Positions 6,845-39,890 of a DNA stretch of 41,310 nt are shown here, piece by piece. The stretch is from Promethearchaeota archaeon. GTDB lineage: Archaea > Asgardarchaeota > Lokiarchaeia > Sigyniarchaeales > SOKP01. How positions within the stretch are numbered: position 1 is the first letter of the stretch; the number at the start of each line of letters is the position of its first letter. A program made the translations under genes and the position numbers. The notes under the pieces are model-generated. The model made no database searches. It was given only the letters and a program-made list of their open reading frames with translations, and was not told the origin of the DNA. The DNA is taken from positions 1 to 41,310 of the forward strand of contig WJIS01000181.1 of assembly GCA_014730165.1 (NCBI GenBank). Reading direction: 5' to 3'.

Positions 6845-7990
6845 TTAGGAAAAATAAGGAATTAACATCTCTTTAACCTTATTTAAATGTCCTAAATGAG
6901 CTTCTTGAAGCTTATCTAAAGTTTCTCTGATTCCTATTTTATCAATTCGTTCTGCTAATTTATAAAATGGACTATCTTTCATTTTTTTGATTAATTTTTT
7001 GTTAGATACGCCGTCTTTAAGATAAGTTTTAGGTTCGAAATCCTTTGAAGCTCTTTTTCCTAACATTCCACGGACAATCGTTAGTAGCATCATATCGAAC
7101 GTAATCCTTAATATATCCTCTTTATCTATATCTGCGGATTTTGCATTAAAAGCTTCCTTCAATAACTTAATAGATTTCTTTAAAAGATTAATTACACTAT
7201 TTCCCAATTCTTTTATTTTATCATTATACTTCCTATCTTCAGATGCCCGTAGAGATAAAGCTGCGACAAGTTCATACTCTGCAATTAAATGGATTAATCT
7301 ACTCTTTGAATTCTTCATCAATCCAATTTGATCATTATCTTCCATTATCTCTTCTAAATGTTTTACAGCTTTTCGGAAATATTTTGATATTTCAATGAAT
7401 TTATTCGAAGCGGCTTCATAATCTTCCATATTTAATAACTTAAGAGCTCTTTTTTCCTCCATTTGATAAATTTCATCAAACTTATTAACGGTCATGACGG
7501 CTTTAAGTATTAAATGTTCTCCTTTATCAGCACCATGTTTTGTACGTTCTAAAGCCTCACCTGCTTTAAGTAATAATTGGGAGGATAATTTATAATATTC
7601 TTCTGAATCAAGTTCGTAAAAGTAGTCCGAAGCTTTACTCCATGCATTTCCTGCAGTTTCATAGTCCTTCATTTTAAATGAAAGATTTCCCAATTGGATT
7701 AATAATTTTGCTGAAATTTCTTTTAAATCCAATTCTTCAGTTTTACGGATTATTGATTTTAACCTATAGACTGCTTGAATATTGTTTTTAAATTTTGAAA
7801 TGATCGAAGATATTTTGATGAATAATTGATCGAGTTTAATATAGCTTCCAATATCAAGATATTTCTGTGCCGCTTTTTCATAAAGGTCGATTGCTTCCTT
7901 TCCCTTCCCTTCATCAGCTAAGTTTTCTGCTCTATCAATTAAACTTAATGCTTCTATTTCTATTTCTTCCTTGTCGTGGTTATTAATCAT
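6845..7990 (-). CDS. TPR / SNAP-like alpha-solenoid protein
   Basis: 381 residues, almost all alpha-helical. Residues 10-160 show helix pairs with TPR spacing (ALSLIDRAENLADEGKGKEA, YEKAAQKYLDIGSY, AKLLIQLGNLSFKMKDYETA, AWSKASDYFYEL), an arrangement also like alpha-SNAP. Residues 160-300 are longer helices without clear repeats, and the C-terminal 80 residues form a separate basic helical part. There is no signal peptide and no membrane span. It lies between the MtrH-like gene and the radical SAM gene on the same strand, 137 bases after the former. A scaffold role is likely; SNARE/SNAP homology would be speculation without a structure comparison. Confidence 0.65.
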   Translation of the reverse strand: MINNHDKEEIEIEALSLIDRAENLADEGKGKEAIDLYEKAAQKYLDIGSYIKLDQLFIKISSIISKFKNNIQAVYRLKSIIRKTEELDLKEISAKLLIQLGNLSFKMKDYETAGNAWSKASDYFYELDSEEYYKLSSQLLLKAGEALERTKHGADKGEHLILKAVMTVNKFDEIYQMEEKRALKLLNMEDYEAASNKFIEISKYFRKAVKHLEEIMEDNDQIGLMKNSKSRLIHLIAEYELVAALSLRASEDRKYNDKIKELGNSVINLLKKSIKLLKEAFNAKSADIDKEDILRITFDMMLLTIVRGMLGKRASKDFEPKTYLKDGVSNKKLIKKMKDSPFYKLAERIDKIGIRETLDKLQEAHLGHLNKVKEMLIPYFS

Positions 7991-9062: not shown

Positions 9063-10262
9063 TTATTCTAGTTTCAATTTTTTTCCACAGTTTTTACAGT
9101 GTGAATCATCTAATTCTTTGAAGCATTCTTCATGATACAGTACACCGCAATCTTTGTTCCCACATTTAATAATATCTTCATCTTCTTCAAATATCATATT
9201 ACATACTGGACAAGAATTATAAAAAGCCTCATCCCCTAAATATGAAGTATTCAATTTCTGAGCAAAAAAGGTCTTAGATTTCGTTTTATCTACTTCGATA
9301 TTCATTTGAGTACCTTTATAAGCTTTTAAACGTTTTACTTGAGTTACTTCAGTAGGAATCTTCAATAAATAGAAACAATGAGGACATCTTACTGTTCCAG
9401 AACGTTGTAGTTTGGGATCATCTTGAGACGATGCCCAACCAGCCAAGCAATGAACATGGAATGGAGAATTACAATTAGGACAAAAACGTCCTGTAAGGAA
9501 AAATGAAGCCTTTGTTTCGGGATCTTGATCAGAAAAACAAATAGAACATTTTTTATAATCTGCAACTCCTCTGATTTGCTTTATTCTTGATTCTTGGTCT
9601 TTAGTTAGATCCTGTACTCTCAATAGATTAGCAGCAATTTTTCTGAGAAAAGCAGGATTCTCAGTAGGAGGTTTAGATGAGGACCCCGAAGGTTTAAGGT
9701 TATCTTTCGCGAGATTTTTTGCTGACTCAATTAAAGAGTCTAAATCATTATTATAATAATATCTACCACCTGATAAATCGCTTAATCTTTTTAAAATATT
9801 AAGATGACTCACTTCACCAAGTCGAAACGTATCAATTTTGATGTTCAATCCCTTTGCAAGTCTTGCCATTTTTACTGGATCTGCAGCAGATGTTGTATAA
9901 TTTCCGTCCGAAATAAGTACAATCCGAGGAGGTTTTGCAGCCATTTTCCTTAATTCTTCAATCAATAACTTTATAGAATATGCCAATGCTTCTCCAAGTG
10001 GAGATGCCCCTTGATATTTGAGATTATCTAATGCATCGAATAATTCATCTTTTAAACTGGAAAAGTCTAGAACTTTTTTATAGCTATCCGAATACTTTAC
10101 AATTGCAAATGTTGTTGCTGGATCTTCAGAAAGACGTTCTTCGACTAATGTTTTGAATGCTTTAATACTACAAGATAAACGAGAGGGTGTGTAATCACTT
10201 CTATACATAGAACGTGAAGCATCTATGCATAAAACGATGTTTTCGGGGATTCTTATTGACAC
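9063..10262 (-). CDS. vWA-domain protein with two C4HC3 zinc fingers (RING/PHD-like)
   Basis: 399 residues. Residues 8-185 are a von Willebrand A domain with an intact MIDAS (DASRS, D14-S16-S18; GASPLGEAL near 85-93; ISDG, D119). A Ser/Pro-rich linker (190-203) leads to a first zinc module: C239-x2-C242, C261-x2-C264, H269, C272, C293-x2-C296. A second module closes the protein: C351-x2-C354, C367-x4-C372, H377, C380, C389-x2-C392. Both follow C4HC3 order, as in PHD and RING-variant treble-clef fingers. vWA plus zinc-finger layouts are known in eukaryotic RGLG-type E3 ligases and in the TFIIH subunit Ssl1/p44. Asgard archaea have ubiquitin-like systems, so an E3 or scaffold role is possible, but no ubiquitin, E1 or E2 gene is nearby. 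Probably cotranscribed with the MtrH-like gene 59 bases downstream. Confidence 0.8.
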   Translation of the reverse strand: MSIRIPENIVLCIDASRSMYRSDYTPSRLSCSIKAFKTLVEERLSEDPATTFAIVKYSDSYKKVLDFSSLKDELFDALDNLKYQGASPLGEALAYSIKLLIEELRKMAAKPPRIVLISDGNYTTSAADPVKMARLAKGLNIKIDTFRLGEVSHLNILKRLSDLSGGRYYYNNDLDSLIESAKNLAKDNLKPSGSSSKPPTENPAFLRKIAANLLRVQDLTKDQESRIKQIRGVADYKKCSICFSDQDPETKASFFLTGRFCPNCNSPFHVHCLAGWASSQDDPKLQRSGTVRCPHCFYLLKIPTEVTQVKRLKAYKGTQMNIEVDKTKSKTFFAQKLNTSYLGDEAFYNSCPVCNMIFEEDEDIIKCGNKDCGVLYHEECFKELDDSHCKNCGKKLKLE

Positions 10263-10646: not shown

Positions 10647-11852
10647 ATGTCTACGGAAGAAGATTTAGCTAAGATTAGAGAGTTCTTTAAGAGAAATGTA
10701 ATCATTTCGGAATTAGAAGAAGTCTTGAGATTTAAGCCCGAAACGCTAATAGGAATCGATCAAATTTCGGGAGATAAATTAATTGAAAATGGAATTGAAA
10801 CAATCCAAGATCTGGCAAATATCCCGGAAAGTAGTCAACCTGAGATTAAAGGGATATTACCTAAGATGATAAATAAATGGATTCAAATCGCAAAAGTCTT
10901 AGAAAAGGCAGTAAATGAACAAATAAAAGCTCATAAAAAATTATTAATGATTGGACTGGACAATTCCGGTAAGACTTCAATCTTATCAATAATACAAGAT
11001 AAATATTCTATCATTAAATCTCTACTCCCTACTAAAGGTGTTAAAAGAGAAAGACTATCCTTTTTTGGGTATCCAATAATAAGTTGGGATCTGGGTGGAC
11101 AAGTACAGTATAGGGAAAAATATTATTTCAATAAACCAGAAATTTTCTTTACAGAAGCGGATTTAATCATTTATGTTGTTGATATCCAGGATCCGGACAG
11201 GTTTGAGGAGTCTTCCCAATATTTCACTCAAGTTCTTGATGTTTTGAAAGAATTAGGAGAAGTCGCTCCAATACTTATTGTTCTCCATAAAAGCGATCAA
11301 GATTATCGAAAAACACTAGAATGGCAAAAACAAGTAAGGGCAGTCAAGGACCTCTTTAACCCTATCGTCGAAGAGTATAATAATTTCGATGTAGATTATT
11401 ACGATACCACAATATTCCAGAAAGAAACTATCATGCAGATGTTTAGTATCGCACTAAAGAAAGTGTCTGAGACATCCGAGATCATTGAGAATATTTTAGA
11501 AGACTTTACTCGAACGATAAATGGAAAAGCAGCAAGTCTTATATCGTTAGATGGGCTTATTTTTGGAAGTTATCAACAAAGTAAGACTGATGAGATGCTA
11601 GTAAACAATACTGCTCTCTTACTTCAAACTATGTCTAATTTTCATAATTCAATAGGTTTGATTCGTGAAAAGTCCTTAAGGCTAGACTTTCCATTGAATA
11701 ATTTTACAATAAGGGGAGAAAAGTTATTCGAATATTCAGATTTGCAAATTGCGGTATATTTATGGGTTTTAAGTGAAAATCCTGAACTAATTGACGAAAA
11801 TCTTGAATACTTTAAGCAACAGCTACTTCCATTAATTCACTTGTTTCTCTAA
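10647..11852 (+). CDS. Arf/Ras-like GTPase with N-terminal HhH and C-terminal roadblock-like domain
   Basis: 401 residues in three parts. Residues 28-75 (LIGIDQISGDKLIENGIETI and following) look like a helix-hairpin-helix module. Residues 97-280 are a small GTPase: P-loop GLDNSGKT (103-110), switch I threonine near TKG (129-131), WDLGGQ (147-152) as in Arf/SRbeta proteins, and a degenerate base-recognition motif HKSD (214-217) in place of NKxD. From about 285 a domain opens with AASLISLDGLIFGSY, like the first strands of roadblock/LC7 domains, and ends with LFEYSDLQIAVYLWVL. Roadblock and longin domains are known partners and regulators of small GTPases, and Asgard archaea carry many such genes. 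There is no N-terminal myristoylation glycine or membrane span. Transcribed alone, with convergent genes downstream. The GTPase is certain; the roadblock call is by pattern only. Confidence 0.85.
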   Translation: MSTEEDLAKIREFFKRNVIISELEEVLRFKPETLIGIDQISGDKLIENGIETIQDLANIPESSQPEIKGILPKMINKWIQIAKVLEKAVNEQIKAHKKLLMIGLDNSGKTSILSIIQDKYSIIKSLLPTKGVKRERLSFFGYPIISWDLGGQVQYREKYYFNKPEIFFTEADLIIYVVDIQDPDRFEESSQYFTQVLDVLKELGEVAPILIVLHKSDQDYRKTLEWQKQVRAVKDLFNPIVEEYNNFDVDYYDTTIFQKETIMQMFSIALKKVSETSEIIENILEDFTRTINGKAASLISLDGLIFGSYQQSKTDEMLVNNTALLLQTMSNFHNSIGLIREKSLRLDFPLNNFTIRGEKLFEYSDLQIAVYLWVLSENPELIDENLEYFKQQLLPLIHLFL

Positions 11853-18880: not shown

Positions 18881-21229
18881 ATGTCCAAAAAAGGCGCAAA
18901 ATTAAAAATTGACGAATATAAAGGTCCACTTGGTAAGATAAAAGGATTTGAATTCACAACGGGAAAAGTTTCATACGGAGACGAAACCGAATGGGAACCT
19001 ATGGGGCCACATCCAAAACCTCATATTCCTACACTGCGCAATTGGTTTTTCACGCTAATGGATCGATATAAACCCTTCTACATGCCGATATGTGATATGT
19101 GTTGTTTGTGCACATTCGGTAAATGTAATTTATCAAAGGGTCGAACTGGTGCGTGTGGAATCAATATGGAAACCCAGCAAGCGAGGATTGTAGAGATTGC
19201 TTGTTGTATTGGTGCCTCTTGTCATTCCGCACACGGAGACCATCTACTTCACTGGTTAAAAGAAAAATACGGAAATGTTCCTATTAATTTCGGGAATAAT
19301 ATTGCCGTAGAAATGCCAATGACTCGTTTGATAGTTGGTATGAAACCAGAAACGTTAGAAGATCTAGAAGAAGCAATGGGATGGGTCCAGTTTAATATTA
19401 CACATCTCTTAGCAGCTGGACACACGGGCCAGGAAGCGAGTTTCAAAGATTATGAAGCAAAAAGCTTTTTAGCTGGATTATGTGATTCAGTTGGTATGGA
19501 GATTGCTGATGCCGTTCAAATTGCAGCATACGGATTTCCTGTGGGAGAACCCGATGTACCTATTGTTGAATTAGGAACAGGTACGATGGATTTCGATAAC
19601 AAAGCGACAATCTTAATGATTGGTCATAATGTTGCTCCAGGAATAGAATTAGTTGATTACATTAGAGAAAAAGGAGTTGATGAGAAAATTGATGTCGGAG
19701 CAATTTGTTGTACCGCTCATGATTTAACCAGATACTATGATGGTGCGAAAATAGTTGGCTCTCTCTCAAGGCAAATGTCCTTTATTCGTTCTGGGTTAGC
19801 CGATGTTGTAATGGTTGATGAACAATGTGTAAACCTACGTTCATATGAGCAAGCTAAGTTAGTAGATGCTCCATTCATAGCGACTAATGAAAAAAATATG
19901 AATGGACTTCCTGATAGAAGTGATGATCCAGAAGATCAAATCATAGATGATTTAGTCAGTGGAAAAGTTGACGGCGTACTTATTTTAGATCCTGTAAAAG
20001 CAGGAAGAGTTGCTGTTGAAACAGCTATTAGAGTGCGACCAATTCGTAAAGGGAAGAAAGCAGTTCCAGATGAAGAGGGATGCATTGAAATGGCTTTAAG
20101 ATGCAACGGGTGTGGTAATTGTCAAAGAAATTGTCCTAACGATTTACCATTAGTCGAAGGGGTTCGATTAGCGAAAGAGGGAGACTTCTCATTATTAGGA
20201 GAGATTTATGATGAATGTTTAGATTGTGGTAGATGCGAAGCTGATTGCATGAAGGAAGTTTCACCACTTACATTAATAATGTATGCTGCTCGTGAACAAA
20301 TCAAAAATGAGAAATTCAATGTACGCGTTGGACGAGGTCCAATCCAAGATACAGAAATTAGAAATGTTGGTGCTCCTATTGTCTTAGGAGAGATTCCTGG
20401 AATCGTAGCCATCATTGGATGCGCGAACTATGCAAAGGAAATTCAAGAATTATATCTCATGGCAGAAGAATTTTGTAAAAGAAATTATATCGTTGTAGTT
20501 TCTGGATGTGCTGCGATGGATATTGGTCTTGTAAAAAATGAAGATGGTGAAACATTATACGATAGATTTCCAGGAGACTTTGATAGAGGCGGATTAGTCA
20601 ATGTTGGAAGCTGTGTATCTAATCCACATATAACTGGTGCAGCGTGTAAAGTTGCTAATATTTTTGCGAGACGCCCATTAAGAGGTAATTTTGAGGAGAT
20701 TGCGGATTATGTCTTGAACAGAGTTGGAGCTGTAGGTGTTGCTTGGGGTGCAATGAGTCAAAAAGCAGCCAGCATTGCCAGCAGTGCTAACAGTTTGGGA
20801 GTTCCCGCAGTTATCGGACCACATGCGGCTGAATACAGAAGAATGTACTTAGGACGAGCAGATGTTCAAGAAGAATGGAAAGTATGGAATGCTCGTGATG
20901 GAACTCCAGACCATGAGGTCGGTCCTTCACCTGAACACTTGTTAACCACTTCAGAAACCATAGAAGAAGCTATCTGTTTAGTCGCAAAATTAGCTTTAAG
21001 ACCAGCTGATAACTCGAAAGGACGAATGATTAAAATTTCTCATTGGATTGATTTAGAGCGTAAATATAAAGGTGTAGACTTTCCAGAAGATCTAGAAAAG
21101 TATATCCGTGTAGAACAAGATATTCCAATTAATATGAAAGATGAGATCATGGATTATCTTAAAGAGAAAGGCTGGGAAGAAAAAGAGTTAGTTGATCCAA
21201 CTTTATTGGAAAGACTGTGCCACGCCTAA
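18881..21229 (+). CDS. cdhA: CO dehydrogenase/acetyl-CoA synthase alpha subunit
   Basis: 782 residues, the normal size of archaeal CdhA. The N-terminal cysteines C71, C74, C75, C77, C82 and C92 (CDMCCLCTFGKC, then GACG) supply the shared B and D cluster region. GASCHSAHGDH and later GHNV, ICCTAHD and DEQCVN fit the Ni-Fe-S C-cluster part. Two ferredoxin motifs, C408-x2-C411-x2-C414-x3-C418 and C446-x2-C449-x2-C452-x3-C456, are the extra 4Fe-4S clusters that separate archaeal CdhA from bacterial CooS/AcsA. Known role: reversible CO2/CO conversion within the Wood-Ljungdahl pathway, cytoplasmic. In methanogens cdhA heads an operon with cdhB, cdhC, cdhD and cdhE; none follows here, the next gene being feoA 445 bases away. 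Codon use is somewhat richer in GC than its neighbours, as expected of a highly expressed gene. Confidence 0.95.
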   Translation: MSKKGAKLKIDEYKGPLGKIKGFEFTTGKVSYGDETEWEPMGPHPKPHIPTLRNWFFTLMDRYKPFYMPICDMCCLCTFGKCNLSKGRTGACGINMETQQARIVEIACCIGASCHSAHGDHLLHWLKEKYGNVPINFGNNIAVEMPMTRLIVGMKPETLEDLEEAMGWVQFNITHLLAAGHTGQEASFKDYEAKSFLAGLCDSVGMEIADAVQIAAYGFPVGEPDVPIVELGTGTMDFDNKATILMIGHNVAPGIELVDYIREKGVDEKIDVGAICCTAHDLTRYYDGAKIVGSLSRQMSFIRSGLADVVMVDEQCVNLRSYEQAKLVDAPFIATNEKNMNGLPDRSDDPEDQIIDDLVSGKVDGVLILDPVKAGRVAVETAIRVRPIRKGKKAVPDEEGCIEMALRCNGCGNCQRNCPNDLPLVEGVRLAKEGDFSLLGEIYDECLDCGRCEADCMKEVSPLTLIMYAAREQIKNEKFNVRVGRGPIQDTEIRNVGAPIVLGEIPGIVAIIGCANYAKEIQELYLMAEEFCKRNYIVVVSGCAAMDIGLVKNEDGETLYDRFPGDFDRGGLVNVGSCVSNPHITGAACKVANIFARRPLRGNFEEIADYVLNRVGAVGVAWGAMSQKAASIASSANSLGVPAVIGPHAAEYRRMYLGRADVQEEWKVWNARDGTPDHEVGPSPEHLLTTSETIEEAICLVAKLALRPADNSKGRMIKISHWIDLERKYKGVDFPEDLEKYIRVEQDIPINMKDEIMDYLKEKGWEEKELVDPTLLERLCHA

Positions 21230-21674: not shown

Positions 21675-21962
21675 ATGAGACGTGTTAAAGGTACTCCGAC
21701 TCATCAAGGAATTTCGCTAATAAAATGTTTAACTGAATGTAATGATGGACAAGAATTGACTGTAGTAAATGTGAATTCAGGTCGAGGAGCAAAAATGAGA
21801 CTTGCTAATCTAGGAATTATTCCGGGATCGAAAATAATAAAGAAGCAATCTGCGCCTTTTCGAGGTCCTGTAGAACTTAATGTAAAAGGTACTTCAATAG
21901 TGATTGGACGAGGTTTAGCAGCGAAAATCAATGTAAGATGTAATAATGATTGTCAAACATAA
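21675..21962 (+). CDS. feoA: Ferrous iron transport protein A (FeoA)
   Basis: 95 residues. Shows the SH3-like FeoA fold: an ISLIKCLTECNDGQEL opening, then MRLANLGIIPGSKIIKKQSAP and the closing PVELNVKGTSIVIGRGLAAKI strand pair. FeoA is a cytoplasmic partner of the FeoB permease. It starts with ATG at 21675, behind a TATA-like box, and its stop lies 77 bases before the preferred feoB start, so the two form an operon. The C-terminal NNDCQT tail has no known role. Confidence 0.92.
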   Translation: MRRVKGTPTHQGISLIKCLTECNDGQELTVVNVNSGRGAKMRLANLGIIPGSKIIKKQSAPFRGPVELNVKGTSIVIGRGLAAKINVRCNNDCQT

Positions 21963-22039
21963 TTTTAGAAATTGTTTTTAACACTCATTCTTTTTTAGTT
22001 TACAATATATCATTACTAGAAAATAGGTCTGATACCATT

Positions 22040-24193
22040 ATGAGTTTTGAGATATCAAAAGAAAAAAATGAAATTAAAGAAAACGAGAAAAGTGCTATAA
22101 ATATTGCATTAGCAGGAAATCCAAATGTAGGAAAATCTGTCATATTTAACCAGTTAACTGGATTAAGTCAAACCATAGGAAACTGGCCGGGAAAAACAGT
22201 AGAAAAAAAAACTGGAAGTTTAGATTTCCTTGGATATAAATTTCGGATTGTTGATCTACCTGGCATCTATTCTCTTTCTACCTATACATTAGAAGAAATT
22301 GTAAGTCGACAATACATAATCTCTGATGAGGTAGATCTCATAATAAATGTAATTGATGCAACCAACTTAGAACGAAATCTGTTTTTTACTTTTCAATTAT
22401 TAGACTTAAAAGTTCCAATGATCCTCGCCATAAATCAAATGGATATTCTTCGTAAAAGGCATATTAACTTAAATTTTGAAAAGTTAGAGGAGATCTTTAA
22501 ACTACCTGTTTTACCGGTTGTTGCAGTACATGGTAAAGGAGTCCATGAGTTATTGGAAGAAGCAATAGAAATGGTGGTGTATAAGTTTCCTCATTCACAT
22601 TATAATGGAACTGAACCAGAAAATTGTTCTCACCATGGACATGATTATTATAGGGAAGTACATTTATCGGATCAAAATAATACACCTAACGAATGTTCGC
22701 GAGAAAAATTCGAATTTCCTGATTTAAATGAATTATTCGAGTATGGAAAAGAAATAGAATATAAAATTAAAAGATTACAGAGCGAAATAGAGAAACATAA
22801 CAAACAGATTTCAAAATTTAAATATCCTTCGCGATTCTTAGCGATAAAATTATTAGAAGAAGATTCTGAAATAATAGAAATCTTTGGAAAGAATCCAGAT
22901 TTGGGATATATTCTCAAAAATGCTGAAAAATATCGAAATGAGTTGGAAAATATGCATGGAGAGGATATTCATACGATCATCTCCTCAGAAATCTATAATA
23001 AGATCAATAAAATAATTGATGAGGTGCAGGAAATCCAACCTGAAAAGGAAAGGAAACATGATAGACTTACTGATAAATTGGAGCATATCACAACTCATTC
23101 TTTTTTTGGATATATTATTCTGATTTTAGTGATCTTAGGAGTATATTATTTTACGTTTAATTTTGGAGACTTTTTTGGTGGATTAATTGATGGTGGATTT
23201 TCTAAATTAAGTGAATATGTGTATAATACTTTTGGTGAAGAAAATATCTTTATATCGGTATTGTGGGATGGTGGTGTAGGAGGTTTTTTTGGTGCGATTA
23301 GCGGAGTTTTAGTATATGTTGTTCCCTTCTTTTTAATCATTGAGATACTCCAAGATTCGGGTTACTTACCACGGGTTGCATTTTTAATGGACAGAGCCAT
23401 GCATGCTATTGGAGTTCACGGAAAATCAATTATAACTATGATTTTAGGGTTCGGTTGTAATGTGGCTGGATGTGCAGGTTGTAGAATTATGGAAACTGAA
23501 CGGGAGAAGCGGATTTCAATCGCCCTTACTTCATTAATTCCTTGTGCCGCAGTCCTCACAGTAGTAATGGGATTGGTTGGACGATATCTCGGAATAGGGT
23601 GGGTTTTATTATTATTTATCATCAATTTTGCTGTAATTCTATTAGTTGGAAGAATCTTAAATAAAAGCATGCCAGGGAGTTGCACTGAACTTATAATGGA
23701 AATGCATGAATATCGGAGGCCAAATTTCTCGGTAATTCTTAAACAAACTTGGGTACGTTCAAAAGAATTTATATTTAAAGCTCTCCCATTGTTAGTAATT
23801 TTGGGAATAAGTTTAGAAATTATACTTATTTTTAGGCTATTAGATCCAATAAATATTATATTATCACCAATCACCGTAGTATGGCTTGGTTTACCTGCAG
23901 TCACTGGTGTATTTTTGATCTACGGGATCCTCAGGAAGGAACTAACATTAGCTTTGTTGCTGATTCTTGCCGATTCTATTGGAATTACATTATTAGGATT
24001 ATTGAGTCCAATTCAGATTTTTGTTTTTAGCTTAGTAACTATGCTTTATGTTCCATGTTTTGCAACTATTGTTGTAATTGCAAAGCAAACCGATTGGAAA
24101 TATGCTCTTCAAATTACGCTGTTAGAAATCACTATTGCCTTATTAATCGGCGGAAGTATATATTGGATATACACGATATTTATGGCAATATAA
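22040..24193 (+). CDS. feoB: Ferrous iron transporter FeoB
   Basis: 717 residues from the ATG at 22040, chosen because it leads straight into the G domain; a TTG at 21950 would add 30 residues unlike FeoB and overlap feoA. The cytosolic G domain has GNPNVGKS (26-33), DLPGIYSL, NQMD and a VAVHGKG G5-like loop. A helical spacer follows with a histidine-rich stretch (HSHYNGTEPENCSHHGHDYY) before the coiled region. Then comes the membrane part: FFGYIILILVILGVYYF, two Gate regions (VVPFFLIIEILQDSGYLPR and GFGCNVAGCAGCR), the FeoB C-domain, and LVMLY-type helices to the end. It imports Fe(II) across the cell membrane using GTP. The GCNVAGC cysteines are the conserved Gate residues. No FeoC follows. 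Confidence 0.93.
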   Translation: MSFEISKEKNEIKENEKSAINIALAGNPNVGKSVIFNQLTGLSQTIGNWPGKTVEKKTGSLDFLGYKFRIVDLPGIYSLSTYTLEEIVSRQYIISDEVDLIINVIDATNLERNLFFTFQLLDLKVPMILAINQMDILRKRHINLNFEKLEEIFKLPVLPVVAVHGKGVHELLEEAIEMVVYKFPHSHYNGTEPENCSHHGHDYYREVHLSDQNNTPNECSREKFEFPDLNELFEYGKEIEYKIKRLQSEIEKHNKQISKFKYPSRFLAIKLLEEDSEIIEIFGKNPDLGYILKNAEKYRNELENMHGEDIHTIISSEIYNKINKIIDEVQEIQPEKERKHDRLTDKLEHITTHSFFGYIILILVILGVYYFTFNFGDFFGGLIDGGFSKLSEYVYNTFGEENIFISVLWDGGVGGFFGAISGVLVYVVPFFLIIEILQDSGYLPRVAFLMDRAMHAIGVHGKSIITMILGFGCNVAGCAGCRIMETEREKRISIALTSLIPCAAVLTVVMGLVGRYLGIGWVLLLFIINFAVILLVGRILNKSMPGSCTELIMEMHEYRRPNFSVILKQTWVRSKEFIFKALPLLVILGISLEIILIFRLLDPINIILSPITVVWLGLPAVTGVFLIYGILRKELTLALLLILADSIGITLLGLLSPIQIFVFSLVTMLYVPCFATIVVIAKQTDWKYALQITLLEITIALLIGGSIYWIYTIFMAI

Positions 24194-24235: not shown

Positions 24236-24832
24236 TTAGAGAGAAGATAAGAAATCAGAGATTGCTTCTGGCTTTCTATCTTCATCTGTTAATTCTTCGG
24301 GGATATCTATTCCTAACAATGTAAATTTAAATCGACATCTTTCATCTTCCAACAATACACATTCAACTTCTTCTCCTTCTGCATCAAACCCAAGTGATTC
24401 TAAAATTCCATTAAGAATACCTTGGTTTATTAGGCATAGATTTTTTGCCATGATGTTTTCTTTTTCTGCTTGTGAAATCGGCTCATAGATACTGATAAAA
24501 ATATGATCTTCTTTAAAAGTCGCCGTAAGATAACCGTGTCCCATTAAAGCGAATCCTTCTAGTACTCCCAATAAGACTTCTTTTTTTACCGGAAGAGGTT
24601 CTAAGCTCCAATCTTTCTCATAAAAAAATTTCTCTATCATTTCTTTTCCTATACTCTTTCCAGACCAAATTAGGATATCATCAGCATTCGTTCCTGCAAA
24701 TTCACTGAATTCCATAATGTCTATTGGTCTGAGCATCAGAAGCCTGATATCTTTTTTTTTATCACCAAGATATAAGTGACTCTTGTTATCATCTATTTTA
24801 ATCTGTAATTCTTTCTTCAATCTTTTAAACAT
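24236..24832 (-). CDS. V4R-domain (Bet3-like fold) protein
   Basis: 198 residues. The segment GTNADDILIWSGKSIGKEMIEKF opens a V4R domain, and ECVLLEDERCRFKF (C158, C166) closes it with the E-C-x7-C-x-F ending typical of the family. LLGVLEGFALMGHGYLTATF lies between. V4R domains share the fold of TRAPP subunits such as Bet3 and of heme-NO-binding proteins, and bind small hydrophobic ligands; the two cysteines often bind metal. It is the last of three minus-strand genes, 95 bases after the longin-GTPase gene. In eukaryotes Bet3-fold proteins activate Rab GTPases, so the neighbour is suggestive; a functional link is inference. Its 3' end is 42 bases from the convergent feoB stop. Confidence 0.7.
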   Translation of the reverse strand: MFKRLKKELQIKIDDNKSHLYLGDKKKDIRLLMLRPIDIMEFSEFAGTNADDILIWSGKSIGKEMIEKFFYEKDWSLEPLPVKKEVLLGVLEGFALMGHGYLTATFKEDHIFISIYEPISQAEKENIMAKNLCLINQGILNGILESLGFDAEGEEVECVLLEDERCRFKFTLLGIDIPEELTDEDRKPEAISDFLSSL

Positions 24833-24927
24833 AGTATGAATTAAATTTAACTATTTAGTTATTTAAATTTAATGCTTAATAATAAGGCTACTCTTTTTCT
24901 CTAATTAATGAACTAATAGTAAGAAAA

Positions 24928-26001
24928 TTAATCAAAGAAATCTTCAGATTCATACTCATACGAGCTTAATTCAAAAATTTTTTCTAATGTGTTTTCAATC
25001 TGAAAGTTAGTTTTGACCGAAGTAAACATGAATTTCCACGTTCTATTTGATATTCTCTCAAATTTAAAAAACTCAAAAATCTCTTTTTTAATTCTGTATA
25101 GATGCTCTTCTTGAGTTTTTCCATTTTGCTGATTTTTTATTAAATCAACCTTATTTCCCAAAATAATTAATGGAACGCCATTCAGTTCATATCTATTGAG
25201 GATTTTCCATAATTCTCTTTTGGATTCTTTAAATCTCCTTTGATTAGCAATATCAATCATATAAATTATAATGTTAGAATCCTGCAAACCTACTAACCAT
25301 TTCTCACGGAATGCTCGCTGACCTGGCATATCCCAGATACTTAAAAATCCCGCATCATCTTGGAGATATTCAATATTAAATTTCCTAGTTGGAGTGAAAT
25401 AATTATCGGAATACTTTCCTGTTTTTATCCTACGAACGAAGGAAGTTTTCCCTACCTCATCAATTCCGAACAAAAACACTTTAATAAAAAACTCTTCTTG
25501 GTAATGATATTCAAGTTCGGGGGTTTTTTCTATGATCTCATCCCCATATCTTCTAATACCGATAAATAAAGTTAATAATAGGTTTTCTATTTCAATATCA
25601 TCTTCAAATGAGAAATTTGATTCTGAATTTAAAAAATCATGTAAGAGTTCAAGAAAAATGTCCTTATAATCATAGGGATTATCATCTTTCTCAAAAATTA
25701 GTCCTATACTAATGTTTTGATTTACACAAGTCGTATAAATATTTAAACTGTCAATAAGTTGAGGAATTGGCTCACTTATCTGGTATTGATTAGTAGAAGA
25801 AAGATTTGATATCTGTAAATTCGATTTTTTATTTTGTTCTCGACAATTGTTTATTAGTTCTTCATGATCGTGATCGTAAATAATATTTCTAAGGAGATCT
25901 TTCTTTTCAATGGTAACAAGATCATTTGGATAACTAAAAATGTTTAATTGACTAAGATCTTTGATGTTCTTACCTTTGAGTAAGAAGATGTTATATAGCA
26001 A
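24928..26001 (-). CDS. Arf/Rab-like small GTPase with N-terminal longin-like domain
   Basis: 357 residues. Residues 1-145 look like a longin/roadblock-type alpha-beta domain (opening MLYNIFLLKGKN, a strand NISIGLIFEK at 96-105, helix YKDIFLELLHDFLN). Residues 172-345 are a complete small GTPase: GIDEVGKT (179-186), switch I TPT (203-205), WDMPGQ (223-228), NKVD (283-286) and TSVKT as G5. WDMPGQ with a Gln at the Ras Gln61 position suggests normal hydrolysis. There is no prenylation CaaX box; the tail is acidic (YESEDFFD). Cytoplasmic or peripheral membrane. The order 497-residue protein, this GTPase, V4R protein is operon-like (163- and 95-base gaps). The GTPase is sure, the longin call is by pattern. 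Confidence 0.85.
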   Translation of the reverse strand: MLYNIFLLKGKNIKDLSQLNIFSYPNDLVTIEKKDLLRNIIYDHDHEELINNCREQNKKSNLQISNLSSTNQYQISEPIPQLIDSLNIYTTCVNQNISIGLIFEKDDNPYDYKDIFLELLHDFLNSESNFSFEDDIEIENLLLTLFIGIRRYGDEIIEKTPELEYHYQEEFFIKVFLFGIDEVGKTSFVRRIKTGKYSDNYFTPTRKFNIEYLQDDAGFLSIWDMPGQRAFREKWLVGLQDSNIIIYMIDIANQRRFKESKRELWKILNRYELNGVPLIILGNKVDLIKNQQNGKTQEEHLYRIKKEIFEFFKFERISNRTWKFMFTSVKTNFQIENTLEKIFELSSYEYESEDFFD

Positions 26002-26164
26002 TTAATAATCCATTTTAACTAATTGAGATATAATAAGTAATTACAGCTTTTTAAAAAGATTTATGATTAACAATCTCAATTAAAATGGCAATCTAATTAA
26101 CAAAAATTAATATTAAAACATTTCTATTGTACAGAAATATTAAATAAAGAAAATAGCGGAAATA

Positions 26165-27658
26165 TTATTCATCGGAAATATTGTCATCACTATCTTCTAA
26201 ATTCTCATTTTCAATATCTTGACCATTAGAATCCATAACTTCGGTTTCAGTTTTTTCAGTCTCATCTTCTATAAGTTCCTGAGGTATTTGTTCTATTGAG
26301 GATTCTCCGGAATTAGTCTCTTTCCCAACAGAAGTTCCGCATATAGGACACTCGGACCAGCCTTCCCTTAAAGCATACCCACATTTACTGCATTCTTTTA
26401 TTTTATCATCTGGTTCCCATTGTGGTATGTCTAAACCCCCACCTTGACGTTTTTTCGCTAATTCCTCCAATTCCTCTTCTTTCCAGACTTCCATTCCTTC
26501 AGGTAATCCTGCTTTTCTTTCCTTTGAAAATTTTTCCAGATCATCTGATGACCAAACCTCAATTCCATTAGGTAAGCCGCTACTTGAACTTCTTTTAGCC
26601 GCTTCTTGTGCTAATTCTTCAGCAGTCCATGATTTTAATTCTTGTCCTCCTGGAGTAGTAACTTTACCCCCTTGCTGCTGAGATGTTGATAGCCCTCCTT
26701 GAGGTGCTCCAGTGGAGCTTGGAGAAGGTGTCGAAGGAGCATCACAACATACAGCAGAAAATCTTAAAACGGCTTCAAAGCATCTATTAAATGTATCAGA
26801 GTCTCCTCCTTCATCTATTACAAGAACTAATGAATTTTTATCGGCAGGTTGAGGTAAGGCAATCCCACAAACAGCAATTTCGGAATCATTTCTTCCCGAA
26901 TCGATGCTTGATTGTAAGTTGTTCATCACTTTCATCAGATCATCTCGCTCCATTAAAAAGTCGCAAATTGGCTCTCCATGTCTTTGGAAGCCCTCATGAT
27001 ATCTGGCTAAATGATTTTTTGTTGACGAACTTTCTAAGGAGTCGAGAATCGCATCAATATAACTATAGTTGTAGGATTTTTTAGATCCTTCTGATGATTC
27101 TTTAAATTTAAACCCTTGGAGATCAAATTCACCCATAACCGGAGCAAATAATGGGTCTTCATCCTTGATTCTCCCATATATTGTTGTTTTAGAGATTGGA
27201 CAGTTGATAACTCCATAATATGCAATTATATCATCAATTAACTCAACTTTTTCTCCATTAAACTTAATTTTAGGAACAGTCCGAAAGATAATCTCCGACC
27301 AAGGCATTTCCTTCACAGGGATAATTGCATAACATGTTTTATCAATTAGATCTTTCAATATTTTTGCATAATTTTTAAAAAGACCCTTCAATTCCTTACG
27401 ATTCTCATCATACTCACTCTTTTCAAGCTCTTTTTTCCCAGTTTCGAGAAACTCATCATAATCTTCTTGGTTTTTCTTCAAATCTCCTCCAAAATATTTG
27501 ATCTCTCCTATAGTATTTCCTTCTATGATTTTAGTTGCTTCCTTTAATACTTTCTTCTGAAAACCGGAAAGATTATCGATTTTAGTAAGAAATATATAAT
27601 CCACTATATTAAAATCGATCTCACTCAAGAATGACTTAAATTTTTGAATAGCAGTCAT
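26165..27658 (-). CDS. Uncharacterised protein with Trp-containing repeats and zinc ribbon
   Basis: 497 residues, no family recognised for residues 1-300, a mixed alpha-beta domain (IIPVKEMPWSEIIF, IAVCGIALPQPA, SLVLVIDEGGDSDTF). A low-complexity Ser/Pro/Gly/Gln linker (305-340) leads to three repeats of about 24 residues with the pattern W-x2-(E/D)-(E/D)-L-x4-(A/S)-K-x-R, at W344, W369 and W392, followed by W414. A zinc ribbon with C423-x2-C426 and C437-x2-C440 follows, then an acidic tail of 50 residues. No membrane span. First gene of the minus-strand run leading to the longin-GTPase (163 bases), so it may be its partner. The repeats could be linear binding motifs. Confidence 0.6.
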   Translation of the reverse strand: MTAIQKFKSFLSEIDFNIVDYIFLTKIDNLSGFQKKVLKEATKIIEGNTIGEIKYFGGDLKKNQEDYDEFLETGKKELEKSEYDENRKELKGLFKNYAKILKDLIDKTCYAIIPVKEMPWSEIIFRTVPKIKFNGEKVELIDDIIAYYGVINCPISKTTIYGRIKDEDPLFAPVMGEFDLQGFKFKESSEGSKKSYNYSYIDAILDSLESSSTKNHLARYHEGFQRHGEPICDFLMERDDLMKVMNNLQSSIDSGRNDSEIAVCGIALPQPADKNSLVLVIDEGGDSDTFNRCFEAVLRFSAVCCDAPSTPSPSSTGAPQGGLSTSQQQGGKVTTPGGQELKSWTAEELAQEAAKRSSSSGLPNGIEVWSSDDLEKFSKERKAGLPEGMEVWKEEELEELAKKRQGGGLDIPQWEPDDKIKECSKCGYALREGWSECPICGTSVGKETNSGESSIEQIPQELIEDETEKTETEVMDSNGQDIENENLEDSDDNISDE

Positions 27659-28442: not shown

Positions 28443-28829
28443 CTAAGCATTAGCTGGTGGGCATATCTTAGGGCTGTGTATCGTAGAAAATCCTTTCCAC
28501 TTGCAGAGAAACGATTCCTCCTTCAAAGAGGGTTGATGCGATAGCTCGTCAGAGTTCAGAAACTTTACCATTATATTAATAGCGGAATTTAGGTCTCTGT
28601 CCAACCGGTGACCACAATCGCACGTAATATCACGTTCGGACAACTCACACCTCACTCGTGTCCCGCATTTCGCACAAGTCTGCGTGGTATAGGATTCATC
28701 AATTCTTATTACTCTTTTACCCATTTTCTGTGCCTTATAGGTTAAGAATTGGACAAATCTCCCCGCTGAACCCGTGTTTTGCAGTGAGTGGTTGAGAGTC
28801 TTGTGTGCTTTATTTAATCTTTTTTTTTC
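28443..28829 (-). pseudogene. tnpB: 3' fragment of IS605-family tnpB
   Basis: About 128 codons of TnpB C-terminus against the usual 370-400. The frame reads RLNKAHKTLNHSL, FVQFLTYKAQKMGKRVIRID, then the zinc-ribbon domain ESYTTQTCAKCG with a second CDCG pair and the RuvC III motif DRDLNSAINI. An internal ATG (28724) makes part of it look like a small gene, but homology continues upstream to about 28820, overlapping the end of the intact LRR gene, before a stop at 28830-28832. The RuvC I and II parts are missing, so it cannot be an active RNA-guided nuclease. It is the remnant of an IS200/IS605-type insertion between two LRR genes. Confidence 0.8.
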
Positions 28830-31421: not shown

Positions 31422-31712
31422 ATGAAAATTGTAACCGTCAATGTGCCAAGAGAATTCATCCAAGCTATGGAAAAATTAACTGGTAATGATGGATTATATC
31501 CCTCGAGGTCAGAACTTATTCGATGCGCTGTGAGGGATTTTTTAATCAAAGAATTGAAGATGGCACGGAAACTTTCAAACTTTAACAAAAAGGAAAGCAT
31601 ACAGACTGATGATGAAAATATCGTTCAAATTCCCCTAGATGAGAATTCCGATGATGATGAGGCTGAACGTAATTTTAAAACATATAAGATAGTTAAACGT
31701 CTTGAATTTTAA
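31422..31712 (+). CDS. Short RHH transcription regulator (CdrS-like), paralog 1
   Basis: 96 residues. Residues 1-48 are a ribbon-helix-helix domain: strand MKIVTVNVP, helix FIQAMEKLTG, turn GLYPSRSELIRCAVRDFLIKEL. The P-S-R-S-E-x-I-R-x-A motif is that of the archaeal short RHH regulators to which haloarchaeal CdrS (cell-division regulator) belongs; equating function with CdrS is inference. A variable acidic linker ends in KTYKIVKRLEF, a tail shared with the paralog at 32261. The start ATG follows GGAAAGGCGAG. A pyrimidine-rich stretch with T runs (31762-31785) lies after the stop as likely terminator. Confidence 0.85.
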   Translation: MKIVTVNVPREFIQAMEKLTGNDGLYPSRSELIRCAVRDFLIKELKMARKLSNFNKKESIQTDDENIVQIPLDENSDDDEAERNFKTYKIVKRLEF

Positions 31713-32854: not shown

Positions 32855-33733
32855 ATGATTCTACTGACGTATTTTAACAGGACTATTGGACCAGAATTAT
32901 ATCTAAGCGTCCCACAAAACTTGAAACAAAATTTAGACAGTAACTATGTTGCGCAAATTAAATCACTATTAGACACGAGTAATGAAGGATTTTTCAATCA
33001 TTATTTTTCTCCTGAATTTAAGACGGCTAATTGGATATTTACTATAGATTCGGAATGGGCGAGGGGATTTAAGGAAGTGGTTATGATAACAATTATTATC
33101 CGTGAAGAGGAACCAGATTTTTCTTATTATGAGCGTATTTTAGGTGAATTCAAGGAGAAAATTCGGAAGAAATCAGAAATCTACAAAGCTTTTTATATTA
33201 ATAAGAAAACTCAAGAAGGAAGGAATGAAATTTATGAACAATATGGAAGATTGAAGGAGGAACTTGATAGATTATACAAAATTGTCTCTATCAAAGTAGT
33301 TGAAACCGAAGGTAGTCTGGTTTCTCTTAAACAATTAAAAGAAACTAAATCTATCGAGATTTCAGATCAAATGCTTAAAAAAATTACAAATAATACTAAG
33401 AACTCTGAAAATTGTTTTATTGTGTTTAGAACTCGTGGTAAATCCACAAAAATAGATATTCTTCCTGTTGCTACAGATAAGATCTTGAGATTGACGATTA
33501 TTTTTGGAGAACAAATGACGGTGAAGATTATCCAGAAAATCTCTCAAATCTTTTCGAAATATGAAGAAACTGTTTCATTAGTTTTTACATCAGGTATATG
33601 TCAAGAGATTGATCGCTGTCTTTATGAAGTGTATATCAATGCGGACTTAGATAAATTGAATGAGATCATCGAGGAAATTTACAAGATCGAGGGGGTTCTG
33701 TCAATCCAAGTGAAATTAATTGAGACAAGCTGA
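32855..33733 (+). CDS. Longin-like protein with C-terminal ACT-like domain
   Basis: 292 residues. The start MILLTYFNRTIGPELYLSVP followed by helix and strands (ANWIFTIDSE, VVMITIIIREEEPDFSYYERIL) resembles longin/roadblock-type domains common in Asgard proteins, about residues 1-105. A coiled helix follows (NEIYEQYGRLKEELDRLYKI). Residues 205-290 show an ACT-like beta-alpha-beta-beta-alpha-beta order: ILRLTIIFGE, helix MTVKIIQKISQIFSKY, strand ETVSLVFTSG, strand RCLYEVYINAD, helix LNEIIEEIYKIEG, strand VLSIQVKLIE. ACT domains usually sense small molecules such as amino acids. The combination is unusual. It is followed after 61 bases by the GalT-family gene on the same strand. Domain calls are by pattern only. 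Confidence 0.6.
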   Translation: MILLTYFNRTIGPELYLSVPQNLKQNLDSNYVAQIKSLLDTSNEGFFNHYFSPEFKTANWIFTIDSEWARGFKEVVMITIIIREEEPDFSYYERILGEFKEKIRKKSEIYKAFYINKKTQEGRNEIYEQYGRLKEELDRLYKIVSIKVVETEGSLVSLKQLKETKSIEISDQMLKKITNNTKNSENCFIVFRTRGKSTKIDILPVATDKILRLTIIFGEQMTVKIIQKISQIFSKYEETVSLVFTSGICQEIDRCLYEVYINADLDKLNEIIEEIYKIEGVLSIQVKLIETS

Positions 33734-33794: not shown

Positions 33795-35078
33795 ATGAAT
33801 AAAAAAAAAACACAAGAAAAGAAAAGAAAGACCCAATCCGATTACATCCCAAAATTCATGGAATGGGGAATAATTACCGAAAGAAATTTTAAGGGTATGG
33901 ACACTTATGATATTCCGATTAAACGTTGGGATCCTCTTTCAACTGTTTCTATAAAAAGTAAAGATTTCGGGTTAAGAGAGGAACATCGCCGTTTATATGG
34001 ACATTATGCCTATATTAGTCCTATACGCGGAAAAAGACCGAAAGGCTTTAAAGCTCAAGATAAAAAGAGTGAATTACTGGATTGTTCTGAACAAATATTA
34101 TCAAAAACGAAGGATGTATTTATGTCCATTACAGAAGGACGAGTTATATATGATACTGATGAACATCCAATTGGAGATGGATATACAATAATAATTTGTG
34201 AAGATAATAAAAGGAGAGATAATCCGTTTTCAAGTTTTCCACATAAAATTCAAAAAGTTCCTGAAAACACCAAAGCGTTGACCTTAATTAATAGATACCC
34301 CGCAATGGCGAGAATAATTGAAAAGGATGTTATGGAAACTATTGAAGAGTCCTTGCCTTCCCATCTTAGATTAGCAAGGGGTATTAATCTTGTTACAATC
34401 TCTAGAAATTTTTATCCATCAATGTGTTTTAATCTTGTACCCGAAGAAGTGCTTGCTGGAATTTTTATAAGTATGAAAGAAAGCATTCTTTATTGTATTC
34501 AAGAAGCGATCCAGAGAGATTATTATGATATTCCTGTATCACCATTTTTCAATATCGGAATGAAAGTAGGAGGTTCGCAACCCCGCCTTCATGGACAAAT
34601 CTATATTGATCTTAGCATGGACGGTCATGGAAGTAGATTGGAAGGCTTCTTAGAGGCATTTAAACAGATGGGAGATACTTGTCATTTATGTAAAACGAGT
34701 CACCAAAATAGTGATAGAATTATTAAAAAATCGGAATATTGGACATTTTATACCACTGGTAGTCCTGTGCGAAATTATCATATTAGATTCCATCCAAATG
34801 AACATATCCGTCGATTTTCCCAGTTAAATATCAATCAAATTAGTGATTTAGCTCATAATCTCAAAATAATTTTTCAAGCTTTGGATGATATTGAAGTAGA
34901 TAAGAATAGAAATATCATATTTAACTGCTGTCCTTTTCATTATGATGCTAATTTTCACTTCTTTGGAGATATCATCCCACATGAGGTTATCGGTGGAGCA
35001 GAAATGGCAGATGATATGAGAGTAGCACGAAAATTACCTCATTTAACAGCCAAAGAAATAAGAAAAGCCATTAAATGA
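33795..35078 (+). CDS. GalT-family (HIT superfamily) nucleotidyltransferase
   Basis: 427 residues. The N-half has YISPIRGKRPKGF, like the GalT opening, and LTLINRYPAMARI, like the VPNxFPA segment. The active-site loop reads GGSQPRLHGQ: the nucleophilic His of the GalT HPH triad is retained (H266) but the first His-Pro is replaced by Arg-Leu. A CHLC pair (C296, C299) may bind zinc. The C-half repeats HIT-like strands and ends with FHFFGDIIPHE. GalT transfers UMP between glucose 1-phosphate and galactose 1-phosphate; the altered triad suggests a different acceptor, such as another sugar phosphate or a nucleotide phosphorylase reaction. The nucleotidyltransferase gene downstream (258 bases, same strand) supports a sugar-nucleotide role. 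Confidence 0.75.
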   Translation: MNKKKTQEKKRKTQSDYIPKFMEWGIITERNFKGMDTYDIPIKRWDPLSTVSIKSKDFGLREEHRRLYGHYAYISPIRGKRPKGFKAQDKKSELLDCSEQILSKTKDVFMSITEGRVIYDTDEHPIGDGYTIIICEDNKRRDNPFSSFPHKIQKVPENTKALTLINRYPAMARIIEKDVMETIEESLPSHLRLARGINLVTISRNFYPSMCFNLVPEEVLAGIFISMKESILYCIQEAIQRDYYDIPVSPFFNIGMKVGGSQPRLHGQIYIDLSMDGHGSRLEGFLEAFKQMGDTCHLCKTSHQNSDRIIKKSEYWTFYTTGSPVRNYHIRFHPNEHIRRFSQLNINQISDLAHNLKIIFQALDDIEVDKNRNIIFNCCPFHYDANFHFFGDIIPHEVIGGAEMADDMRVARKLPHLTAKEIRKAIK

Positions 35079-39400: not shown

Positions 39401-39890
39401 ATTCCCTATAGGGAGAAAAAGCAGGATTATCATTTGCAATTTTCAGTTTCAATAATTCTTTTATAATTATTTTTTTATTTTTTACTTCATTACGTTCAGT
39501 TTCTAAATATTCATCTACGTCTATTTCGGAGTTGTATACTTTTTCAGGCGGAAACTCATTAATTAAATTTCTCGTAGTTTCAATTAGATCTTCTTCATCC
39601 AGTTTATTTGTAAGATGATCATAGAGATCTTCATGTAGAGACACAGAATCTACATCTTCATCATATAAGTTAAAAAGATAATCATTTATCTCAAATAATA
39701 ATGCCATCCCATTAATCTTACCTACTTGAAAACCTAATTCAGGAAAATTGATTAAATCTTTCTTATTATTTAACTTTTGGACAAAAGCTCTAACGGGATA
39801 TATCTCACCTTCAAAATCAATACTTCCATAGTCAGAATATTTAAAATCATCCAACTGATATTTATTCCTTGCCTCTCTTGATATTTTCAT
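36492..39890 (-). CDS. Large GH13 alpha-amylase-family protein
   Basis: 1132 residues. The first 270 form an acidic helical domain of unknown type. The GH13 barrel follows: MVPNHTG (conserved region I with Asn-His), RFDAA with nucleophile D508, IAEAF with acid/base E573, and NNPDE with D634 in place of the usual NHD. Conserved inserts include LWLIGIWERS, YHGNDGTSFPWNDTAQLNY and PGLPMFGHGQ. The C-terminal 300 residues are helical with no recognised fold. No signal peptide, so it acts in the cytoplasm on internal glucans or maltose/trehalose-type sugars; related long GH13 proteins occur in diverse bacteria, but the product is not known to me. Divergent from the phosphohexomutase-like gene (241 bases) and possibly functionally tied to the maltokinase-like gene at the left edge. 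Confidence 0.85.
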   Translation of the reverse strand: MKISREARNKYQLDDFKYSDYGSIDFEGEIYPVRAFVQKLNNKKDLINFPELGFQVGKINGMALLFEINDYLFNLYDEDVDSVSLHEDLYDHLTNKLDEEDLIETTRNLINEFPPEKVYNSEIDVDEYLETERNEVKNKKIIIKELLKLKIANDNPAFSPYRELFDDDKIRMNTIYDEITDEIKDFFKDKPKFGPKDENLIDILQKPIKKHPNSIKDQLEYIHDEYGSILGNFALRILTALDLIREEEMFRGLGPGEARVLDYNALEYENFTPDKFWMPKVVMIAKHTYVWLDQLSKKYNKSITKLHQIPNEELDQLKEWGFNALWLIGIWERSQASKRIKRWCGNPEAEASAYSLYDYVIAYDLGGPDSFENLKRRAIERGIRIASDMVPNHTGIVSKWMMEHPDWYVQLDYKPFPSYEYTGENLSGDSNVGIYLEDKYFTRTDAAVTFKRVNYQNNKTRYIYHGNDGTSFPWNDTAQLNYLNPEVREAVIQTILHVSRLSPIIRFDAAMTLTRKHFQRLWFPEPGTGGAIPSRAENGMSKEEFYKKMPKEFWREVVDRINKENPDTLLIAEAFWLLEGFFVRTLGMHRVYNSAFMNMMSDEDNTKFRAVLKNTLEFDPKILKRFVNFMNNPDEETAIKQFGDGDKYFGVCLMMVTMPGLPMFGHGQIQGFEEKYGMEYRKSYWNEEINWGLVHRHEDQIFPIMKKRYIFADVDNFLLYDFWTGDVVNEDVYAFSNSSNDQRALIVYHNKYAETKGFIKQSVGFAVKDGDGKKIEQRTLAEGLQLPEEGYCIFKDYITELEYIRRNKDIHEKGLYLELRAYETHAFLDFRITQDDEFFHYTQLHDLLNGRGVHNIDQTLTQVIYQPLHAPFEKLVNVNNFEKIVELENIDSYIKTISPDLERFLEEVKNYSSGTNNLKKIKLNILDILRTSLELKNKLKEYDIINDKMSFIEDLLPKNDFDWGIILSWGILHQLGKVVSKNQYKLISRSWIDEWQLSKYINLTLEGLKTKDSQNPARTTTLIKILIMLQDLFINNYNENFQARKILKELFTDSDVRQFIDVNRYKEILWFRAENFITLCNWISLVTIIKDIANESKNIGERISKNLELIRNFRKTAKNVNYRLNEFLEQFQ

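Follow-up and report, generated by a model that had tools for sequence, protein, structure and literature searches.

Gene content and domain architecture of the locus

The window analyzed here, 41,310 nucleotides corresponding to contig C64 of a 392-contig, 4.65-Mb assembly (GenBank GCA_014730165.1, WJIS01000181.1), derives from a Lokiarchaeota family, hereafter f1, and carries three consecutive genes on its minus strand that we refer to as the triad. P1 (26165..27658, 497 amino acids [aa]) is a zinc-finger protein with WxxEEL repeats, P2 (24928..26001, 357 aa) an Arf-like GTPase fused to a predicted longin-like domain, and P3 (24236..24832, 198 aa) a V4R-domain protein. The spacers measure 163 bp between P1 and P2 and 95 bp between P2 and P3, and P2 starts with TTG in the window and with ATG in relatives. 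The first-pass annotation of this DNA had placed the three open reading frames here, with the V4R gene 95 bases after the GTPase gene and a protein with repeats ahead of the latter, all of which was confirmed; its "protein with repeats" and its "zinc-ribbon protein" are one and the same, P1, whose three WxxEEL motifs precede the zinc finger. Orthologs of the triad genes were found in ~55 f1 genomes at ~40-68% identity and with mostly intact reading frames, so the triad is not a product of chance. All 55 relatives from named genomes are assigned to Candidatus Lokiarchaeota or Lokiarchaeia. The window scan detected no tRNA or Rfam RNA.

The P3 sequence of the window matched the Pfam V4R profile (PF02830) with E=5e-5, under the gathering score, and all 29 of its orthologs matched the same profile over the C-terminal signature (best 2.7e-9), which bears out the proposed V4R (Bet3-fold) assignment. 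The signature (24323..24457) encloses a predicted zinc site composed of C133, E155, and C158, each conserved in 29/29 orthologs, and C166, conserved in 26/29. The bacterial sensor DmpR binds zinc through Cys151/Glu172/Cys177/Cys185 (PMC7264223); the cysteine spacing is 25/8 in P3 versus 26/8 in DmpR, and the Glu of P3 is off by two relative to the DmpR numbering printed in that paper. When the P3 profile was compared with PDB sequences, the best matches were TRAPPC3 (E 0.14) and MJ1460 (E 0.29), neither significant. Other weak profile matches of P3 pointed to V4R/MsvR/MetOD1 sensors rather than specifically to TRAPPC3. By its sequence features, P3 is thus a V4R protein with a putative zinc site.

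The G domain of P2 (residues 172-345, 24967..25488) was recovered by the Pfam Arf profile (1.9e-28) and by Foldseek, whose top matches were Arl8b, Arl3, and the Asgard Arf-related GTPase HodArfR1. Relatives (27/27) have intact G1, G3 (WDxxGQ), and G4 (NKxD) motifs, with the catalytic Gln228 invariant; with WDxxGQ, NKxD, and the Arf profile all present, P2 is Arf/Arl-like. The short amphipathic, often myristoylated N-terminal helix of Arf proteins is absent, and a longin-like domain of ~157 aa stands in its place (residues 1-157, 25531..26001). AlphaFold2 orders this region as E-E-H-E-E-E-H-H, which is the longin order b-b-a-b-b-b-a-a; a roadblock topology would begin with a helix, whereas the model begins with two strands. 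Its block-mean predicted local distance difference test (pLDDT) values range from 44 (mid loop) to 88. Alignment of the P2 N-terminus against Pfam and PDB sequences gave no longin-family match, its profile did not resemble that of a second Asgard longin-like domain, and the Foldseek list was crowded with G-domain matches. Of the earlier description of a GTPase with its own longin-like domain, the Arf G domain therefore stands by profile, whereas the longin, not seen by sequence, remains a predicted label derived from model topology.

P1 combines three distinct regions. Its N-terminal domain (residues 1-308, 26735..27658) has a confidently predicted fold (block-mean pLDDT mostly 83-96), for which Foldseek found no solved relative in the PDB (best E 0.17, probability 0.04). 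It is followed by three tandem W[TS]xE[ED]L...R helical motifs (26447..26629), whose tryptophans W344, W369, and W392, spaced by ~22-25 residues, are invariant in 28/28 relatives, and by a CxxC-x10-CxxC zinc finger (26339..26392) equally invariant in 28/28, in agreement with the zinc-ribbon-type protein proposed at first. The finger matched Pfam Zn_Ribbon_1 slightly under the cut-off (3.8e-5) and locally resembled RanBP2/NZF fingers in Foldseek (probability 0.75-0.98, but E>1, over 25 residues), so that it may be either a zinc ribbon or a RanBP2/NZF finger. Querying the window's own genome with full-length P1 returned no other protein with P1-like repeats. Directly upstream of P1 lies the remnant of a TnpB/Cas12f-like transposon protein (28443-28724, minus strand; TNB domain 9e-16), near which, in the window genome, leucine-rich repeat and tetratricopeptide repeat (TPR) genes stand between P1 and a ribbon-helix-helix (RHH) gene.

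Conservation of the triad and its flanks

Of the 228 genomes surveyed for the phylum, 64 contained P1, 60 the GTPase (E<=1e-55), and 80 a V4R relative (E<=1e-5). P1, P2, and P3 were colinear on one contig in 51 f1 genomes, with median match-to-match spacers of 196 and 137 bp, and the f1 genomes without a colinear triad mostly involved contig ends; the adjacency in relatives on which the initial proposal had been made to depend is thus observed. Outside f1, the three genes were not adjacent. All three are convincingly absent only from G143 (closed) and from G004 and G015 (few contigs), and G143 retains the flanking order p365-galT-RHH though it lacks the triad. Co-loss as strong evidence was weakened by two further candidates, namely G011, whose contig breaks 1.8 kb past galT, and G001, whose contig stops before the expected triad position.

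Downstream of the V4R gene, f1 genomes usually carry a prismane/CODH-family gene on the same strand, which is absent from several genomes. Comparison of gene order with f1 showed that it is inverted in the window (18881-21229, plus strand), where FeoA-FeoB (21675-24193) sits between it and the V4R gene. This neighbor bears on the alternative that P3 is mainly a small-molecule or redox sensor, using its V4R cavity and zinc, with the GTPase as output and a possible tie to the prismane/hybrid-cluster gene. The conserved Cys/Glu/Cys/Cys site like that of ligand-sensing DmpR, the ligand cavities in Asgard TRAPP/V4R structures (PMC10933270), and the prismane-family gene standing next in 31/35 loci all favor such a role, but the loss of that gene from several genomes and its inversion in the window loosen the tie. 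The sensor role, which overlaps with the explanation we prefer, has an appreciable chance of being right, though one short of even. On the other side of the triad, an alpha-amylase-domain protein (1132 aa, 36492-39890, minus strand), a galT-like protein (33795-35078, plus strand), and the nucleotidyltransferase that it adjoins form a sugar-metabolism stretch conserved beside the triad.

V4R genes beyond the triad

In the V4R tree, the triad V4R grouped with genes of two sister families (the V4R_A group, support 100/99), and the second V4R of these sister families grouped with the other f1 V4R (V4R_B, 100/99), the V4R_B clade being sister to V4R_A. Each V4R_A of the two sister families adjoins a V4R_B paralog. 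Their gene neighborhoods take two forms: roadblock - 308/309-aa protein - MglA-like GTPase - V4R_A - V4R_B in L193 and L194, where Pfam confirmed the roadblock in both loci and the GTPase in L193, and V4R_A - V4R_B - roadblock-GTPase fusion in L219 and L220, followed by an AN1 zinc-finger protein (L219) or a similar-looking protein (L220). In L224, a V4R pair is convergent with a GTPase, and both V4R rows form long branches in the tree. In the class-level relatives L237, L240, and L250, a distant V4R lies 3-33 bp upstream of a Rab-like GTPase. Altogether, ~69 V4R loci other than those of the triad were sampled, of which 7 have a same-strand GTPase neighbor, compared with 7/525 background slots (1.3% per slot; binomial p ~0.0025, with relatives counted as independent).

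V4R-roadblock fusions were identified in L231 (5422-6330; Pfam V4R 8e-14, Robl_LC7 5e-4) and L233 (5551-6459; V4R 1e-11, Robl_LC7 8e-6), both neighbored by 1110-1123-aa proteins. As judged by inspection, V4R is also preceded by a longin-like region in L255, L272, and L289, and it comes after a roadblock protein in L239 (Pfam) and L296. From these fusions and neighbors, the link of V4R to longin/roadblock domains is broad, and its link to GTPases recurs within the class. The idea that the locus represents an arrangement predating TRAPP is not supported for the triad, which was assembled at the family level; only the linkage of V4R with longin/roadblock domains and GTPases goes back further than the triad, and "predates TRAPP" could at most describe this domain association.

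Two further observations concern V4R genes. Next to the f1 V4R_B stand genes for a type II/IV secretion ATPase and a prepilin peptidase, and an ATPase of this type is likewise encoded in L193; V4R_B near the secretion ATPase, small membrane proteins, and prepilin peptidase was seen in L216 (844-6109, G000:C103), L218, L223, and L193 (258-1355). A tie of V4R/GTPase control to a pilus-like machine is possible. Separately, a domain marked by "ILLTYF..xxGP" and a conserved "WARG..E" occurs in the window (32855-33733, plus strand), in L255 (5761-6735), and in L212, L213, and L215, either as a stand-alone protein, N-terminal on GTPases, or fused to V4R; by sequence it looks longin/DENN-like (Afi1 match, E 0.05).

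An older gene block around P1

The neighbors of P1 in deeper relatives tell a different story from those of P2 and P3. Sister-family P1 genes lie away from both P2 and P3. In f2 (L175, L177), it is accompanied by an RHH gene, a gene combining von Willebrand factor A (vWA) and RING domains, a TPR-like gene, and a nearby proteasome alpha gene, and in f3 (L294) by a vWA gene and Rag-like GTPase genes. Both f1 and f3 have a Rag/Arf-like GTPase in the neighborhood of P1, and one f2 locus has it at a distance of ~5 kb (in L175, a GTPase lies ~5 kb from P1). The window contains counterparts of this block: the RHH protein (p96; 31422..31712, plus strand), a P1 neighbor kept even where the GTPase is elsewhere, a 401-aa Rag/Arf-like GTPase (10647..11852, plus strand; Pfam Gtr1_RagA 3.3e-25), and a vWA + RING-like protein (p213; 9063..10262, minus strand; VWA_2 3.5e-17, zf-RING_2 1e-5). 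A TPR protein (6845..7990, minus strand), with weak TPR/RPN7/SNAP matches under the cut-off, may correspond to the TPR proteins that accompany vWA-RING in relatives. P1 therefore belongs to a different, older block of RHH, vWA-RING, TPR, Rag-like GTPase, and sometimes proteasome alpha genes, and under the simplest history the GTPase-V4R pair would have ended up, in f1, between P1 and the other members of this block. Hence, the proposal of a single ancient module comprising all three genes is not supported, since the triad is confined to f1 and the deeper neighbors of P1 differ.

Proteasome alpha neighbors P1 in f2 and in the f1 genus g6, and by resemblance also in f4; within ~5 kb of P1, Pfam identified it in L168 and L175, and sequence similarity pointed to it in L177 and L293. 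This proximity suggests a proteolysis or ubiquitin-type link. P1 might accordingly act in a module of that kind, together with the vWA-RING, TPR, and proteasome alpha proteins, and be near P2/P3 by position only. The vWA-RING genes near P1 in f1, f2, and f3, the RHH genes in f1 and f2, and the local NZF/RanBP2 likeness of the finger speak for such a module, but the Foldseek E value exceeds 1 for this 25-residue finger, and Pfam calls it a zinc ribbon; we hold the proposal as a tentative one.

A candidate GTPase switch formed by P2 and P3

The folds or family signatures, the gene order, and the finding that P3 is orthologous to V4R members of GTPase-roadblock runs form the observed basis of the explanation that we favor with some confidence, in which P2 and P3 would constitute a GTPase/longin/V4R switch module, that is, a GTPase switch with an accessory regulator, P3 being a ligand-sensing scaffold or regulator. 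P2 would act as an Arf-like GTPase switch with a longin-like domain in the same chain; judging from other longin/roadblock proteins, that domain probably dimerizes and would offer a platform for the G domain. P3 is probably dimeric, pairing with itself or with its paralog V4R_B, and would dock on the longin platform in the manner of the Bet3-type subunits that flank the longin pair in TRAPP, thereby tuning the nucleotide state or localization of P2, possibly upon binding a hydrophobic ligand. P1, coming from another block, may use its three tryptophan motifs and zinc finger to serve as effector or adaptor, which is the weakest step of the model.

The first-pass annotation had gone further by proposing that P3 is a true guanine nucleotide exchange factor (GEF) for P2, a minimal TRAPP-like activator. 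Bet3-type subunits are indeed part of the TRAPP GEF (PMC10933270), and V4R genes repeatedly stand beside GTPases. In TRAPP, however, longin subunits are the core of the exchange factor, their heterodimer touching Rab, and Bet3-type subunits flank them (PMC10933270); the triad encodes no separate longin pair but a single longin-like domain within the GTPase protein, and for P3 both the zinc site and the weak profile matches point to V4R/MsvR/MetOD1 sensors rather than to TRAPPC3 specifically. We consider GEF activity of P3 improbable, and a scaffold or co-regulator role fits better than a lone GEF because of this arrangement of TRAPP.

Several observations weigh against the switch module that we favor. 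The longin assignment of P2 depends on a single AlphaFold2 model with a predicted template modeling score (pTM) of 0.53. In two f1 members (G035 and G012), the V4R gene lies on a different contig. The flanks in f1 were retained almost as well (RHH 37/43, galT-like 34/39, prismane 31/35) as the triad genes (GTPase 43/44, V4R 38/41), which makes the f1 adjacency modest evidence by itself, the V4R genes outside f1 providing the stronger evidence, and the spacers of ~100-300 bp in nearly all f1 genomes are unlike those of a tight operon, so that separate promoters are possible. All seven GTPase adjacencies outside the triad fall in the window's own class, and the nearest sister-family homologs of the longin-GTPase are apart from V4R (L187, L195-L197). 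An alternative is that three unrelated genes were held together by slow rearrangement in f1, for which speak the nearly equal conservation of the flanks, the differing old neighbors of P1, and the GTPase homologs that stand alone elsewhere. Against such a lack of functional link, the sister-family V4R_A orthologs adjoin other GTPases and roadblock proteins, V4R-roadblock fusions exist elsewhere, and G004, G015, and G143 are without all three genes, though a single deletion could account for the latter. We regard an unlinked triad as unlikely and retain the P2-P3 switch as the preferred explanation.

A wider version can be put forward only as a doubtful conjecture, namely a Lokiarchaeal GTPase-longin/roadblock-V4R unit in which V4R_A/V4R_B would form a Bet3/Trs33-like heterodimer with exchangeable GTPase partners (MglA-like plus roadblock, roadblock-GTPase, and longin-GTPase), representing a living counterpart of the TRAPP ancestor that in one family joined the vWA-RING/Rag-GTPase block via P1 as a new-fold adaptor.

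Significance and comparison with known systems

The origin of TRAPP-type Rab activators is an open question to which these loci speak. They supply specific pairs, P2 with P3 in f1 and, in the sister families, V4R_A/V4R_B with the GTPase and roadblock next to them, by which a putative simple, ancestor-like version of the TRAPP machinery becomes testable. If the pairs interact, a GTPase-longin/roadblock-V4R unit would be placed in Asgard archaea; if they do not, this would argue that Bet3-type subunits are sensors recruited to GTPase control only later. The domains themselves are known, and the GTPase-V4R pairing is unreported as far as the open-licence literature searched shows.

Eukaryotic TRAPP resembles the triad in combining longin, a Bet3/V4R-fold protein, and a small GTPase, but it employs a separate longin heterodimer on a prenylated Rab, whereas in the triad a single longin-like domain forms one protein with an Arf-like GTPase that lacks C-terminal cysteines. 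The bacterial V4R sensors DmpR/PoxR and the archaeal MsvR share the V4R signature and the Cys/Glu/Cys/Cys site with P3, which differs from them in being a stand-alone protein without an AAA+ or DNA-binding domain that adjoins a GTPase. MglA-MglB and the Streptomyces conservon-type systems (PMC4316618) have the roadblock and MglA-like GTPase in common with L193 and L194, the former of which additionally carries a gene for a type II/IV secretion ATPase in its vicinity. Unlike those systems, the two loci add a V4R pair, and no histidine kinase or response regulator was seen in the comparison; the triad, for its part, has longin in place of roadblock. The closest comparison is the Asgard set of Tran et al. 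(2024; PMC10933270), which contains the same kinds of parts, including longin-GTPase fusions in MK-D1, V4R/TRAPPC3 with zinc sites, and one longin-TRAPPC3 fusion in Heimdall. According to these authors, the GTPase genes of MK-D1 do not as a rule share operons with genes for roadblock, longin, or TRAPPC3, with which the layout in G042, a single-contig f2 relative whose GTPase homolog has no V4R neighbor, is consistent, and GTPase partners are hard to match from genome layout. Unlike in MK-D1, GTPase-V4R/roadblock linkage is present in f1 and in its sister families.

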